From a virus, in IMG/VR virus record IMGVR_UViG_3300022751_000009, positions 1 to 41,343 of that record: a stretch of DNA of 41,343 nt, one strand, 5' to 3'. Below, piece after piece: positions 16,913-40,850 of the stretch. Position numbers and translations under genes: made by a program. Positions within the stretch are counted from its first letter, which is position 1, and each line of letters begins with the position of its first letter. Under the pieces are notes generated by a model. That model was not told the DNA's origin. It worked only from the letters and a program-made list of their open reading frames with translations, and did no database searches.

Positions 16913-17556
16913 AGGTTGTAAATGTTTACCAACGATCTAGGCGTAAAGAAACTTGTATCAAAATCCTCCGGTCGGCTATGCATAAAATCGTAAAGAGTAG
17001 TTTCGTTTCCGATAACATTTCCTAACCATTGCAGCATCGTTCCGTTCCAATTTTGTGAGAATTGATAATTACTCCTAGAGTAACTACCCTCAAGTCCGTA
17101 CATTTTTACCATTTGGTTCCATGCGGAGACCTGCTTTCCGTTAGGCAATTGTCTTGTTGAATTTTCAGCTTCCGCCACTTGCACTCCTGTAGTAGAATAT
17201 GAAGAAAAATCACTCGCTAAATAATGAAAAAAAACATAGTAAGCAATAATACTTATTTTTTTGTTTCCAACATTATAGCGCAATCCTCTCCAATCTTCTT
17301 TACCATCGACTAAGTCCTTCCATTTTTGTAAGGCATCAGGTTTCCAAGCATAAGGCGCAGCGTCCTCGAACTGATCAATTAGCTCAGCGTATTGTTCCCA
17401 CCCCAGGAAGCTAACCAAAAACTCACTTTCCTTTTCTTCAATCTCCCCTTGCAATTGCAATACGGAGTTTGGCGTATTTCCCCCAATAGATGGCTGTGCC
17501 ACCGCATGGGGAATATATACTGCTTTGTTAAGAAAATATGAGTTGTCGATTATCAT
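16909..17556 (-). CDS. Putative head-tail connector protein (DUF6712-like), 215 aa
   Basis: The N-terminus (MIIDNSYFLNKAVYIPHAVA, then VSFLGWEQYAEL) resembles the DUF6712 family found beside capsid genes in Bacteroidetes phages. The protein is mostly helical with several conserved aromatics (YVFFHYLASDFS). Gene order capsid - small protein - this gene - neck protein fits a head-tail adaptor. The family name is from memory of the pattern and should be treated as tentative. Confidence 0.55.
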   Translation of the reverse strand: MIIDNSYFLNKAVYIPHAVAQPSIGGNTPNSVLQLQGEIEEKESEFLVSFLGWEQYAELIDQFEDAAPYAWKPDALQKWKDLVDGKEDWRGLRYNVGNKKISIIAYYVFFHYLASDFSSYSTTGVQVAEAENSTRQLPNGKQVSAWNQMVKMYGLEGSYSRSNYQFSQNWNGTMLQWLGNVIGNETTLYDFMHSRPEDFDTSFFTPRSLVNIYNL

Positions 17557-17559
17557 TTC

Positions 17560-17796
17560 CTAATTTTTCTTTTCTACGCTTACAATTTGCTCGGCCTCGC
17601 GTTCCTCCATCTTGGCTCCCTTCACTTCTGTAGCTACTTTTTTATCAAGCAACTTCTTTCCGTGAATTTTGTGAACCACATGATTCATCTTCAAAGGATC
17701 GTCATTTAGCGTGATCACGATGTAATCATCGGACTTGTCGAAAGTTGCGGTACCTACCGCATTTTGGTCTTTCTCTTTTAATTCAAATTTTGGCAT
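17560..17796 (-). CDS. Small head-region protein, 78 aa
   Basis: A charged, small protein (Lys/Asp/Glu-rich) with a beta-rich middle (DYIVITLNDDPLKM) and a helical charged end. It sits between the major capsid and the connector. Head decoration or assembly function is possible; no family recognised. Confidence 0.55.
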   Translation of the reverse strand: MPKFELKEKDQNAVGTATFDKSDDYIVITLNDDPLKMNHVVHKIHGKKLLDKKVATEVKGAKMEEREAEQIVSVEKKN

Positions 17797-17814
17797 GATA
17801 TTTTTTTATTAAGA

Positions 17815-19095
17815 TTAAACGGCCGGTTTCAATAATGCAGCTTTAACAGTTGCCAATGTCAATACCATCCATGCCGGTTTTTCGTTATTGGCAATTCTCA
17901 ATAATGAGAAGACCTCACCAATTGCGGTTTTCTGGTTTTTGATAAATTGATCATTGTAAGTTCCAAAACGAAGGATAAAGTCTGAGTGCCATTCTTTGTA
18001 AACACCAGCCTCTCCTACCAATGCCGTTCCTTGCGCGATCTTGTAGGAGCTGAAAACGCGCATACCATTGATACGGTAAGAGCCATCTCCGCTAACGGTC
18101 ATGTACGGTTTGAATTGAGGGCGTCCATCTATATCCTGTGTGAACATAGCTGCAAAGATGTCGCTCGGGTTCATAATAACCGTGTCCGGGGTGAAATACA
18201 TTCCTTCGATTACTGATTGGCCGGCAATGATAGCAAGGCCGTTGTCAGGAACCACGAAAGTATCATCAAATACAGAAGTTGTATAAGCCACTGCATTTGT
18301 TTGGATCGTTGCGATCAAACCATCTTGCCAAGCACGAACAACTTTGTCCTCAAACAAACGAACGATTTCCGCGAACAACATTTCATTGTCCATCTCAAAT
18401 TCTTCCGTCCACTCGATACGTCCTGCGTATTTCTTACGAGGCGTACGGTTTTTAATGAAAGTGTCTGACGTCAAAGGCTTGGTTCCGCCTTCCGCTACAA
18501 CCGTAACGGCTCCTTCGGCAGTTGCCTGTTCTGTACGAATCACTTCGCTAGGAACTTTTGCAACCTGGCTGTTTGGAATTACCTCAAGAATGAAGTTTTT
18601 TGGATAACGGATTTTTGCGATGTCGTTTTCAACAAGGTAGTTCTCCACTAGCGGAAGCAAGACACCTGTACCGTTGGTCATTGCCGACGTGGTGGTGAAC
18701 ATTGCTGCTGCTCTTTGTTCGCTAAATGTGATTTCGAAATCCTGGCCTGTTTTGATTGCGTTTACAATCTCTGGCTTGTTTTTCTCAATCATTGATCGCA
18801 ATTGGAATTTCTCCTTGTTGCTGAGGGTTTTGGTGGTTTGTTGCTCCACTTTTTCCATTGACTCGGCAATTGAACGAATTTGTGCAGCAATAGGCACCAC
18901 GTTTCCGTCTTTGTCTTTTTCAGTTGCACCCAAATGAGTGTCTAGGGCGTTTTTTATTGCCGTTGATGCCGATTCGTTCTCTTTGGCTGATCGAAGCTCT
19001 AAAACTGCCTCCAAACCATCGATGAACGTAATCTGCTCGTCATTCAGCTTTGCGCCTCTTTGCTCTAAGGCTTTTCTTAATTCAAATTTTTCCAT
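17815..19095 (-). CDS. Major capsid protein, HK97 family, 426 aa
   Basis: Residues 1-125 are charged and helical (LEQRGAKLNDEQITFIDGLE, a coiled region) like the scaffold-like delta domain that the prohead protease removes. The HK97-fold part begins around residue 130 (TSAMTNGTGVLLPLVENY) and includes VPSEVIRTEQATAEGAV, the KKYAGRIEWTEEFEMDN segment of the E-loop/P-domain helix region, and NPSDIFAAMF. Length is usual for an uncleaved HK97-type subunit. It follows the protease gene directly. The start at 19095 is the only ATG with full N-terminal helix. Confidence 0.92.
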   Translation of the reverse strand: MEKFELRKALEQRGAKLNDEQITFIDGLEAVLELRSAKENESASTAIKNALDTHLGATEKDKDGNVVPIAAQIRSIAESMEKVEQQTTKTLSNKEKFQLRSMIEKNKPEIVNAIKTGQDFEITFSEQRAAAMFTTTSAMTNGTGVLLPLVENYLVENDIAKIRYPKNFILEVIPNSQVAKVPSEVIRTEQATAEGAVTVVAEGGTKPLTSDTFIKNRTPRKKYAGRIEWTEEFEMDNEMLFAEIVRLFEDKVVRAWQDGLIATIQTNAVAYTTSVFDDTFVVPDNGLAIIAGQSVIEGMYFTPDTVIMNPSDIFAAMFTQDIDGRPQFKPYMTVSGDGSYRINGMRVFSSYKIAQGTALVGEAGVYKEWHSDFILRFGTYNDQFIKNQKTAIGEVFSLLRIANNEKPAWMVLTLATVKAALLKPAV

Positions 19096-19113
19096 TTGAT
19101 TTGTTTATAATAG

Positions 19114-19791
19114 TTAAAAAAATGTAACGTTTGATTTTGGTTTTTCTACTAAGGGCTGTTCAGGAGTGTTCGTCACGGCTGCTGAACGAGTTGCAAGTAA
19201 ATTATGTAAATCGGTTATTTGTTCCGGCGTAAATTTATCTAGTATTGCGTTATCTTGGAATTCCCCAAAGCCGCGTGTCTGGGCTTTTGGATCTGCTGAA
19301 AAATTCAATACTGTTATTTCACCTAGTTTCAGTTCTTTGATTATATATGAATCATCTTCAGCGTCATATTCAACCTTATCCCACATATAATTAAATCCGT
19401 AAGATAATTGGTGCATCATTCCGGCTTTTCTTAATGCTACAACTTCATCAGCATAAGCCACATTTTCGACAATATCACCTTCAAACCAAAGGCCGTAATC
19501 ATCCTCCTGTAGAACGTTAGGTCTACAAAGCGCCTGGTCAAGCCTGTGGTCTTTTAATACAAGAATTGGATTTCCGCTAGTGGTATTCACACCTCTGGCA
19601 TTAAGGCTGTTTAACGTTGCGCCCTTCATCACCTTTTCCTTGAACTCATTCTTGCTTCCCCAAACAATTGCGTACCCTTTTATTTTTCGATCATCAGTAA
19701 TCTCCAACTTTGCGCGTGTTGCGTCAAACGGAGTTGATACAGGATTTTTATATTTTTCCCTTTCTGTTTTGAATATTACCAGGTTATCCAT
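19114..19791 (-). CDS. HK97 family prohead protease, 225 aa
   Basis: This serine protease matures the prohead by removing the capsid delta domain. The family pattern is clear: IKGYAIVWGSKNEF near residue 37, a catalytic His at about 82 in LKDHR, a catalytic Ser at about 130 in HQLSYGF, and the late motif LKLGEITVLNFSADPKAQ. It overlaps the portal gene by eight bases and precedes the capsid, the usual order. Confidence 0.92.
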   Translation of the reverse strand: MDNLVIFKTEREKYKNPVSTPFDATRAKLEITDDRKIKGYAIVWGSKNEFKEKVMKGATLNSLNARGVNTTSGNPILVLKDHRLDQALCRPNVLQEDDYGLWFEGDIVENVAYADEVVALRKAGMMHQLSYGFNYMWDKVEYDAEDDSYIIKELKLGEITVLNFSADPKAQTRGFGEFQDNAILDKFTPEQITDLHNLLATRSAAVTNTPEQPLVEKPKSNVTFF

Positions 19792-21043
19792 TGTATTTTT
19801 CTTCTAGGTTTTTATAAGCTTGCCCTGTGTTCGCCCCTGCTTCTTTCATTTTAGCGAGGTTGTCAAGGAAAACTCCGTCGCTTTCGAGTGCTGTTTTCTT
19901 ATCTTCTTGCAGGGCCTCTACGGTTGAGAAATCCGGTTCAAACACAATTCCTTCCGGTAAATAATACGCCTTTGTCAATATCTCTGCCTCTGCCATACAA
20001 ACCGCCTTTACCACATTCTGCCATAATGACTTCTCTGCATCGTTCTTGTTTGTAAATGTACTGCTTCCCTTTCTGGGTATCAGTTCAGCGTCAACTCCGA
20101 ATATCCCGGCTATTGTTACCGCATTAGCTTCTGTCTCTTCAAAAGGTTGAAGCTCTGCAATTGTTCCAAGCGTCTTTATAAACTTCAGCGGTATTGATGA
20201 AATTCCGATAAAGTTTTTATCGCCAGTAACTCCGTTCCTGTTTTGCAAATCCCTCATCATCGCATCCCTGTTAGATGGATCCATTGCCTCTTCAATGCTC
20301 GATTTTGCCGCACTCGCATCTTTGCTTAATATCCCTCCGTTGCCGTTCTTTGCGTAAACATTGTATCTGGCTTGATACACAGCGAGTATATTGTCAATAT
20401 TTCTGCTAACCCTGCTCAATGGACTTATACCTTTTCCGTTCTGATCAAGCCCTAACACAGTGCTTTGAGTTATGTATCTGGGCTCTATTTCGTGCTTGTA
20501 CATAAAAAAAGTCTTATAAAATGCAATGAAGTCGCTTTTTGACTTCATTAAAAACGGATTAGAAATCTCTTTCAAAAACACCGGAGCGGTTACATTTGGA
20601 TGTAATACCCAAATATTGCTGATATTGTCAATTGTTGGATTAACAATACTTTTTGGTGTTTTAGTATAAATATAAGCCGATCCGTCTGAATACTTTGAAA
20701 AAACATCCTTATAAACCAAATCTCCAATAGAATCGAAAGGATTTGGCGAATCGATTAGCTTTTTCAGGTTTCCCTGTGGCTCATATTCCTCACCTTTTTC
20801 GTTTACGAGCCTATATTTTACACTTGCAGCCCTGTCCGCTATTGCGTCAATTGGGATAAATACTTCAGCAAGATTGCAGGCCAACTCATAAGGGTTCGTT
20901 TCTGAATACCTCAGAAGCTTGTCATTTCCTAAAGAACGTAAATATTGATTGAAATATTGGAACCATTCACCGCTGTTGTCCTGCTCTGCAAAACCAGACG
21001 GACTGCGTACCTTTTCTTTCTTTCCGAAGTTATACCAAGCCAT
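19784..21043 (-). CDS. Phage portal protein, HK97 type, 419 aa
   Basis: The portal forms the dodecameric DNA gate of the head. Visible family features: an N-terminal region with AVEFIPIDAIADRAASV-like helix (here LAEVFIPIDAIADRAA), the strand GSAYIYTKTP, WVLHPNVTAP, the HEIEPRYI segment, the helical core with GKGISPLSRVSRNIDNIL and GGILSKDA, and the late AVTIAGIFGVDAELIP. Terminase lies upstream, the protease downstream. Its leader (21044-21165) carries a terminator just before the ATG. Confidence 0.93.
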   Translation of the reverse strand: MAWYNFGKKEKVRSPSGFAEQDNSGEWFQYFNQYLRSLGNDKLLRYSETNPYELACNLAEVFIPIDAIADRAASVKYRLVNEKGEEYEPQGNLKKLIDSPNPFDSIGDLVYKDVFSKYSDGSAYIYTKTPKSIVNPTIDNISNIWVLHPNVTAPVFLKEISNPFLMKSKSDFIAFYKTFFMYKHEIEPRYITQSTVLGLDQNGKGISPLSRVSRNIDNILAVYQARYNVYAKNGNGGILSKDASAAKSSIEEAMDPSNRDAMMRDLQNRNGVTGDKNFIGISSIPLKFIKTLGTIAELQPFEETEANAVTIAGIFGVDAELIPRKGSSTFTNKNDAEKSLWQNVVKAVCMAEAEILTKAYYLPEGIVFEPDFSTVEALQEDKKTALESDGVFLDNLAKMKEAGANTGQAYKNLEEKYNG

Positions 21044-21059
21044 TTACGTAAAAAGTAAA

Positions 21060-21160
21060 AAAGCCAACATCCGATTGCTCGAAACGCTGGCTTTGTTAAT
21101 ATTTCTTCGGTTTTTCCCGTTCATGCTTTTGTTTGGTTCCGTAAAACTTCATACGGATAT
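21060..21160 (-). promoter_or_regulatory. Leader of the portal/capsid unit with interleaved terminator
   Basis: In transcript order: A, ATATCCG (21154-21160), at the expected 5' end; B, AAAGCCA (21088-21094); A', CGGATGT (21067-21073); B', TGGCTTT (21060-21066) followed by more T. B-B' is a terminator close to the portal ATG at 21043, and A' in its loop pairs with A over seven positions, one a G-U. TCCGTA/TACGGA (upstream hairpin) competes for A. The order matches the leaders at 8.3 and 39.4 kb, though the A-A' pairing is weaker here. Confidence 0.5.
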
Positions 21161-37583: not shown

Positions 37584-38126
37584 TCAGGCGAACCTAGCGT
37601 ATGTGTTTTTTAATCGAACATCGTAATTAAATTTTCGGTATTGTTCACCGTTGTAGTAATATGCGAAAGTAGCCCAATCAGTCTTGACCAATGCATCGAA
37701 CATTTTTTTATTGGACTTTATAAAAAGCAATCCTAATCGAAGTTGATTTTCCGCACTTGCCTTAGCATAATCCCACATAGCGCCAACGGATTTGAATCCC
37801 AATAATTTCCAATGAAAACCCATTACTTGCATAAGTCCAACAGAAGTTGCTTCCATTGCGGCGTTTTGGTTCTTTGAAAAAGCGTCGTTGAACGCCGACC
37901 ATTCTGCGGCTTGCTTTTCCACTTTGTTTACTGACCATTTACCGCTTGGAGAGTAAGGAGATTTGCGTTTAAACCAATGTGGTTCGAATTGGATAATTAT
38001 CTTTCCAGTTATCGGATCGAATGCTTGTGAACCCGACTCAATCAAAACAACGGTTTTTACCTTTGCATAGGTAAGTCCAAATTCTTGGGCGATTAATGAA
38101 ATAGAGGTATTGGTGAGTAGTTTCAT
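37584..38126 (-). CDS. N-acetylmuramidase endolysin, 180 aa
   Basis: Cell-wall hydrolase of the DUF3380 N-acetylmuramidase family. Catalytic Glu at 30 in VLIESGS, family blocks IIQFEPHWFKR, EATSVGLMQVMGFHW, and YYNGEQYRKF near the end. No signal peptide, so it needs a holin for release. It ends the unit and overlaps the gene before by ATGA. Confidence 0.9.
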   Translation of the reverse strand: MKLLTNTSISLIAQEFGLTYAKVKTVVLIESGSQAFDPITGKIIIQFEPHWFKRKSPYSPSGKWSVNKVEKQAAEWSAFNDAFSKNQNAAMEATSVGLMQVMGFHWKLLGFKSVGAMWDYAKASAENQLRLGLLFIKSNKKMFDALVKTDWATFAYYYNGEQYRKFNYDVRLKNTYARFA

Positions 38127-40437: not shown

Positions 40438-40477
40438 CAAATATACGTAGGGTTATGTTAAGAATGATTCTAAATTA
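40438..40477 (-). promoter_or_regulatory. Promoter: palindromic element, 12-nt spacer, TATATTTG
   Basis: The best copy of the element (plus strand TTAAGAATGATTCTAAATTA, 40458-40477) lies exactly 12 nt from TATATTTG (40438-40445). It follows at once on the tmRNA terminator and drives the 85-aa and holin-like genes. Confidence 0.78.
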
Positions 40478-40480
40478 AAA

Positions 40481-40502
40481 AATCCCGATGTTGGTCGGGA
40501 TT
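40481..40502 (-). terminator. Terminator of the tmRNA gene
   Basis: AATCCCGA/TCGGGATT, an eight-base stem with six-base loop, followed by TTTTTAATTT on the minus strand. It closes the tmRNA transcript. Confidence 0.9.
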
Positions 40503-40750
40503 AGTAAGAATTTCGTTTCTTTAACGCAACTATGCAACTGCTCTAAGCGGCGCAATGCTGATGACGTTATTGTCGTCGGTTATTGTTTTTAGTTCTCCGT
40601 AATACCTACTTTATCGCTGTCAAAACCAATCAACCCCGTATTTTATAATCGGCGGGTCAGGCATAACTACAAACCTGATTCCTTACGTGGTGGAATTGAC
40701 GGGAATCGAACCCGCGTCCAAACGACTTTCAATAATACATCAACGAACTG
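40503..40750 (-). ncRNA. ssrA: Circularly permuted (two-piece) tmRNA
   Basis: Frees stalled ribosomes by acting as tRNA-Ala and mRNA. The acceptor piece comes first (40750-40688), with the tmRNA hallmark GGACGCGGGTTCGATTCC and an encoded CCA. After a 50-nt spacer the coding piece begins (40637) with GGGGTTGATTGGTTTTGAC, the tmRNA 5' end. GGGGTTG pairs with CAATTCC over seven positions, with the alanine G3-U pair. P2 pairs are AGCGAT/GTCGTT, GGTATTAC/GTATTATT (one mismatch) and GAACT/AGTTC. The tag (40577-40533) reads DDNNVISIAPLRAVA, then TAG; the first codon is uncertain. No pseudoknot is evident. Permuted genes are known in alphaproteobacteria, some betaproteobacteria and cyanobacteria; Bacteroidetes hosts use one-piece tmRNA. 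Confidence 0.9.
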
Positions 40751-40753
40751 ATG

Positions 40754-40784
40754 CAAAGTAAATACATTTTTTGTTTAGAACCAA
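40754..40784 (-). promoter_or_regulatory. Putative tmRNA promoter
   Basis: TTG (40782-40784), 21 bases, TACTTTG (40754-40760), one base short of TAnnTTTG. The expected start, near 40748, coincides with the 5' end of the P2 strand in the acceptor piece. The palindromic element is absent, so host polymerase could read it throughout infection. Confidence 0.55.
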
Positions 40785-40850
40785 TATAAATTACTACATT
40801 TGAATAGTTCTTACTCTCGGACGAGCATAGCCGGGAAATGCAAATAGGGA

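Follow-up and report, generated by a model that had tools for sequence, protein, structure and literature searches.

A circularly permuted tmRNA gene in a Bacteroidota phage and the phage gene family to which it belongs

Circularly permuted tmRNA occurs in three bacterial lineages, the Alphaproteobacteria, a betaproteobacterial group and the Cyanobacteria, whose genes share with the one described here the gene order, the G3-U70 pair, the T arm, P2, a spacer and a tag reading frame. The Rfam family RF04321 is a merger of these alpha, beta and cyano lineages (PMC11915505), and the coding piece of two-piece tmRNAs typically, but not universally, contains pseudoknots 1 and 2 (PMC3985003). Two-piece forms have also been reported from phages, where they account for 53 of 133 unique tmRNAs, 50 of the 53 being aquatic (PMC9004378). 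Those of pelagimyophages, cyanophages and the OM43 phage Melnitz (PMC9004378) resemble the present gene in being phage-borne, permuted and presumably served by host SmpB; they follow the alpha, gamma (formerly beta) and cyanobacterial lineages, from which the family described below differs.

Architecture of the permuted gene

The DNA analyzed here is a linear virus record of 41,343 bases, referred to over its whole length as the window. A full Rfam scan placed RF04321 (tmRNA_permuted) on the minus strand at 40742-40543, matching the full length of the model (1-213) with 63.3 bits (E 4.6e-10) against a curated cut-off of 47 bits. ARAGORN likewise called a permuted tmRNA (tmRNA*) with the tag DDNNVISIAPLRAVA, and reported no tmRNA at all when run on 200 order-1 shuffled copies of the window (8.3 Mb). 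Both results uphold the preliminary description of this locus as a permuted tmRNA gene in a phage. The covariance evidence that it had called for is divided: the merged model passes and the lineage models fail, since for RF01849, RF01850 and RF01851 only beta_tmRNA appeared among the listed matches, with 37.1 bits against a cut-off of 84. The standard model RF00023 recognized the acceptor half only (40731-40688; 22.1 bits, below cut-off). A one-piece tmRNA beginning upstream, named in the preliminary description as the finding that would speak against it, was rejected given the permuted ARAGORN call and the restriction of the RF00023 match to the acceptor half; neither program found such a 5′ end.

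Read from 5′ to 3′ on the minus strand, the acceptor half with its T arm and CCA lies upstream, followed by the spacer and the coding half. A Bacteroidota-type promoter-like site (40754..40786) consists of TTG at 40784-40782, N20 and TTACTTTG at 40761-40754, which has one mismatch to TAnnTTTG. The tRNA-like acceptor piece (40688..40750), delimited by the RF04321 match, ARAGORN and a 5′ end placed from the promoter, encodes its CCA. It contains the T arm GCGGG-UUCGAUU-CCCGU (40699..40715), placed by the RF04321 alignment and with 5/5 pairs formed, and, within 40688..40698, the acceptor stem 3′ strand CAAUUCC (40698-40692), the discriminator A (40691) and CCA (40690-40688). An intervening sequence of 50 nt (40638..40687), predicted to be excised, separates it from the acceptor stem 5′ strand GGGGUUG (40631..40637), which would be exposed by RNase P at 40638/40637. 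The D-loop GGUUUUGAC (40619..40627) has the form usual in Bacteroidia tmRNA. The coding-side strands of P2 (40591..40619; P2a 40619-40613, P2b 40606-40599, P2c 40595-40591) face acceptor-side strands at 40719..40749 (P2c 40749-40745, P2b 40738-40731, P2a 40726-40719). The tag reading frame GAC...UAG (40530..40577), encoding DDNNVISIAPLRAVA*, is immediately preceded by AAUAACC, and a terminator hairpin AAUCCCGA...UCGGGAUU (40502-40481) with a U run completes the unit (40477..40502).

These coordinates agree letter for letter with the swapped halves, leading CCA half, 50-nt spacer and GGGG start noted initially, and the promoter-like TTG-N20-TTACTTTG and terminator hairpin proposed at that stage are present in the sequence. 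The acceptor stem GGGGUUG/CAAUUCC forms the seven expected pairs, two of them G-U (G3-U70 and G4-U69), and P2 pairs in three segments, interrupted by a U-U mismatch in P2b and a single bulged U in P2a. The mature RNA would comprise about 63 + 159 = 222 nt, which is compact; far smaller tmRNAs without a coding sequence have been published (PMC11915505). Minimum-energy co-folding of the two predicted pieces from this single sequence did not return the tmRNA fold as the minimum-energy structure. Weak Rfam matches to Trp_leader and CRISPR-DR17 at the terminator fall far under cut-off and were dismissed as chance. By eye, a candidate second pseudoknot of 4+4 bp can be drawn 3′ of the tag, about which we make no claim.

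Relatives of the gene and pairing between its halves

Among 79 records of phages related through terminase or capsid, compared besides the window, the tmRNA gene was present in 3 of 50 relatives reached through terminase and in 0 of 29 others, and because its presence is so patchy the gene is accessory. The three carriers are G048 and two short contigs in which it adjoins the terminase gene; over both halves and the promoter, the G048 copy (L173) is 78-80% identical to that of the window, with 80% in the acceptor piece. Neither Harreka nor the other cultured relatives tested carry a permuted tmRNA. The virus G050 (L196-L198), whose capsid protein is 97% identical to that encoded in window positions 17510-21065 at about 75% DNA identity, also has no tmRNA. 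Pattern scans yielded 65 viral stretches and one prophage, in Sunxiuqinia indica (L269), with antirepressor, RecT-like and SbcC-like genes nearby. Once the window and its relatives were added, along with a second genome hit, the non-redundant family numbered 46 genes on viral contigs and in two prophage-like regions, some of the records being fragmentary. Since the D-loop GGTTTTGA and portions of the acceptor and T stems were prescribed by the search pattern, only unforced positions were taken as evidence.

At these positions, the pairing between the two halves is kept across the 46 genes. Acceptor pairs 4-69, 5-68 and 6-67 are formed in 137 of 138 cells, by types that include G-C, C-G, U-A and A-U, against a mean of 87.7 and a maximum of 102 when 3′ halves are shuffled. 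U70 of the alanine identity pair G3-U70, which the pattern left free, is found in 46/46 genes, the window included. P2 opens with a C-G pair in 38 genes and a U-A pair in the other 8, with no exception. Duplex energies in P2 average −13.98 kcal/mol for cognate halves and −9.33 kcal/mol for non-cognate ones, a cognate mean reached in none of 20,000 permutations; the cognate duplex of the window (−13.4 kcal/mol) ranks fourth among the 46 acceptor halves. This comparison of sequences shows that the halves pair with each other and are conserved, as the compensatory changes anticipated in the preliminary description would have it, and the relatives settle that the permuted tmRNA gene is real. That the window holds a decaying, functionless copy of a host-derived tmRNA is consequently very improbable: the patchy distribution (3/50, 0/29) and the two G-U pairs, bulge and mismatch of the window copy could suggest decay, but compensatory change maintains the pairing between halves in 46 divergent copies, and a homologue just 78-80% identical retains tag frame, resume motif and promoter alike.

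The TAnnTTTG promoter is found in 13 of 45 family members where 2.2 are expected, and L173 and L174 carry perfect copies at the homologous place. In L269 and many other members, the permuted tmRNA directly follows phage tRNA genes or is interspersed with them, in which case it has no promoter match of its own. The intervening sequence varies in length and sequence among relatives, and in L237, L257 and L263 the spacer (89-91 nt) contains a complete tRNA-Ala(UGC) gene, whose maturation would help expose both tmRNA ends and fits the processing model given below. One strict pattern returned 102 IMG/VR contigs (L070-L171), mostly with permuted tmRNAs; the shortest tags have 8 residues (ADAELVAA) and the longest exceed 30.

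Host, tag and proposed function

The host is well supported as belonging to the Bacteroidota and is probably flavobacterial, because the phage has relatives among Flavobacteriaceae phages, scarce Shine-Dalgarno-like sites, TAnnTTTG-type promoters and a homologous gene copy in a Sunxiuqinia indica prophage; the preliminary assignment, which the phage relatives and scarce sites confirm, thus stands. The only annotated phages among its relatives in the portal are the Polaribacter phages Danklef and Freya and an unclassified fecal phage, while capsid and terminase are closest to those of the Olleya phage Harreka_1, of the Aggregaviridae (50% and 64% identity, respectively, in the best pieces). DNA similarity to annotated phages is slight outside the conserved T-arm stretch and uninformative. 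Shine-Dalgarno-like sites, naturally missing in Bacteroidetes (PMC6847099), precede 1 of 35 long ORFs in the window and 10 of 350 (3%) on contigs of the tmRNA family, in contrast to 247 of 775 (32%) on contigs bearing other permuted tmRNAs. Elsewhere in the window, positions 37584-38126 encode an endolysin of the N-acetylmuramidase family (PF11860), whose Harreka counterpart is a GH19 chitinase-like enzyme.

All through the family the tag frame is conserved together with its stop codon and resume motif, and in the window the frame is preceded by AUAA, in line with a reported resume-motif preference (PMC4236655). The C-terminus is conserved, ISIAPLRAVA in the window corresponding to ISLNNAPLRAVA in G048, whose complete tag is GKVISLNNAPLRAVA, and the LRAVA end recurs in widely different phages; the start of the window tag is acidic (DD). 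A further phage tag is GKTIQMFDYEAKVAA. On average, 45 family tags, some with starts set by a simple and uncertain rule, have 16 residues and a charge of +1.4, with K or R at −4/−5 in 37/45, whereas in 26 tags of Bacteroidia hosts the averages are 9 residues and −0.96, K or R occurs there in 1/26, and the end is LAA or MAA in all but one case. The resume codon lies 42 nt from the D-loop in the window and 25-57 nt from it across the family, as against 75-79 nt in Bacteroidia hosts. Pseudoknot 1 has no room between P2 and the tag in the window, where only 13 nt (40590-40578) follow P2c before the resume codon is reached. This missing room is compatible with tagging, by analogy with E. coli, where single-stranded RNA can stand in for pseudoknot 1 with tagging retained (PMC4236655).

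We interpret the locus, with a probability of about 0.88, as a functional gene for a circularly permuted, two-piece tmRNA in a Bacteroidota phage, which would carry out trans-translation. A single precursor would be transcribed from the Bacteroidota-type promoter and ended by the hairpin terminator. Host tRNA enzymes would then release the GGGG 5′ end (RNase P, 40637) and cleave behind CCA (40688), the 50-nt spacer being discarded and the two pieces held together by the acceptor stem and three-part P2, whose pairing the sequence comparison shows. Host alanyl-tRNA synthetase (AlaRS) would charge the RNA through G3-U70, and host SmpB and EF-Tu would deliver it to ribosomes halted on broken mRNAs; translation there would restart on the phage tag DDNNVISIAPLRAVA and terminate normally. 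We infer the use of host SmpB because the phage has none: the protein is encoded in 0 of 37 virus records (the phage and 36 others) and is present in the Sunxiuqinia host. The expected benefit would lie in ribosomes freed during infection and in the phage's own long tag with its LRAVA end; proteins bearing it would probably meet a fate different from that under the host tag, an idea made directly testable by the sharp difference between the tags in charge (+1.4 vs −0.96) and at −4/−5 (37/45 vs 1/26). We consider it highly unlikely that the RNA is instead a decoy that titrates SmpB or blocks host tmRNA rather than tagging. Such a role has a precedent in phage DS6A, whose RNA consists of a tRNA-like domain only (PMC11915505, PMC4131195), and would be in keeping with the lack of room for pseudoknot 1; against it stand the family-wide tag frame with stop and resume motif, the conserved C-terminus, and the tagging that persists when single-stranded RNA takes the place of pseudoknot 1 (PMC4236655).

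Origin and comparison with known systems

Because the pattern searches fixed GGTTTTGA, the family-wide D-loop is unusable as evidence of origin, for which only the window and the terminase-found genes L173 and L174 can serve, along with unforced positions. We compared a core of 21 positions made up of the D-loop, the first P2 letters and GUUUGGAC. Of 28 Bacteroidia one-piece tmRNAs, 6 have the window core unaltered and 16 have it with at most one change; among 26 other permuted forms, none is identical and one (L102) comes within one change. By eye, L102 resembles family members L237, L257 and L263. The L173 core equals that of the window, and the host-like core is missing in L174 and L287. 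The U at the D-loop position occurs in 23/28 hosts versus 2/26 other permuted forms. The simplest reading of these sequences leans toward a permutation of Bacteroidia tmRNA that arose within phages, so that of the two possibilities left side by side in the preliminary description, independent origin or transfer, the former is favored, on a shared core that is short (21 positions). Convergence on the host's SmpB is another possible source of the host-like core.

We regard as unlikely the alternative that a permuted form was transferred from an alpha-, beta- or cyano-type source and then adapted to Bacteroidota, instead of arising anew from the Bacteroidia one-piece gene. Permuted phage genes are abundant (102 contigs), the permuted architecture is common to both, and there is the weak beta_tmRNA match (37.1 bits against 84), but the core and D-loop U side with Bacteroidia hosts (6/28 and 16/28 versus 0/26 and 1/26; 23/28 versus 2/26), and the pseudoknot 1 space and tags differ. 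Transfer would be compatible with the functional reading as a tagging tmRNA. More tentatively, an independently permuted phage gene could represent a fourth permuted lineage, devoid of pseudoknot 1, whose RNA would vie with the host's one-piece tmRNA for SmpB and put a long, usually basic tag in place of the acidic LAA/MAA degron, altering the fate of rescued peptides in the phage's favor; we hold this larger proposal to be possible but doubtful.

A standard tmRNA scored above cut-off in 60 of 61 sampled Bacteroidota genomes, and the gene adds a phage lineage of permuted tmRNA in a phylum whose hosts carry the one-piece form. The permuted form exceeded cut-off in 2 of 396 Bacteroidota genomes, each of which has a separate standard tmRNA as well; as the permuted copy has phage-like surroundings in both, a host-encoded permuted tmRNA was rejected for these hits. 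Several sub-cut-off permuted hits in Bacteroidota genomes coincide in position with that genome's own standard tmRNA. Since the hosts retain an intact form, the phage gene lends itself to a clean test of what phages carry a tmRNA for, be it ribosome supply or a changed tag, and a compact tmRNA with no room for pseudoknot 1 informs which tmRNA parts are needed.

Compared with alpha, beta and cyano permuted tmRNAs, the window gene is distinguished by the missing pseudoknot 1 space, the D-loop UUUUGAC, a long tag and a Bacteroidota host. It is like Bacteroidia one-piece tmRNA in its D-loop and P2 start (GGUUUUGACAGC...GUUUGGAC in many hosts), and unlike it in that the host gene has standard order, 75-79 rather than 42 nt from D-loop to resume codon, and a 9-residue acidic tag. 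The tmRNA of Cellulophaga phage Calle was examined as a permuted candidate and rejected, being of the standard one-piece form; in Calle_3 (L276 42950-43309), its ARAGORN tag AQIEANMEAVNAILNLEVAVGV is unusually long. Close known counterparts are the SsrA genes of the crAss-like phages cr7_1, cr124_1 and cr50_1 (Crassvirales), which are permuted, score 60-66 bits with RF04321 and share the architecture of the window gene; cr7_1 differs in its tag, DNVNNIVDYTNVA, and acceptor, GGGCGUG. The GenBank records read for them give 'SsrA' only and leave the permutation unmentioned. In cr50_1 (L273 870-1036), a RAGATH-22 RNA (155.6 bits) precedes the permuted tmRNA by about 450 nt. The novelty first claimed for the locus, that such genes were not known from Bacteroidetes or their phages, is thus not supported as stated, since phage two-piece tmRNAs are published and these annotated crAss-like genes, of phages with Bacteroidota hosts, are actually permuted. 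Phage-borne permuted tmRNA as a kind is already known; a Bacteroidota lineage seems undescribed, no open-access main text that we found naming Bacteroidota phages as one, and the window gene belongs to a widespread, barely described phage gene family.
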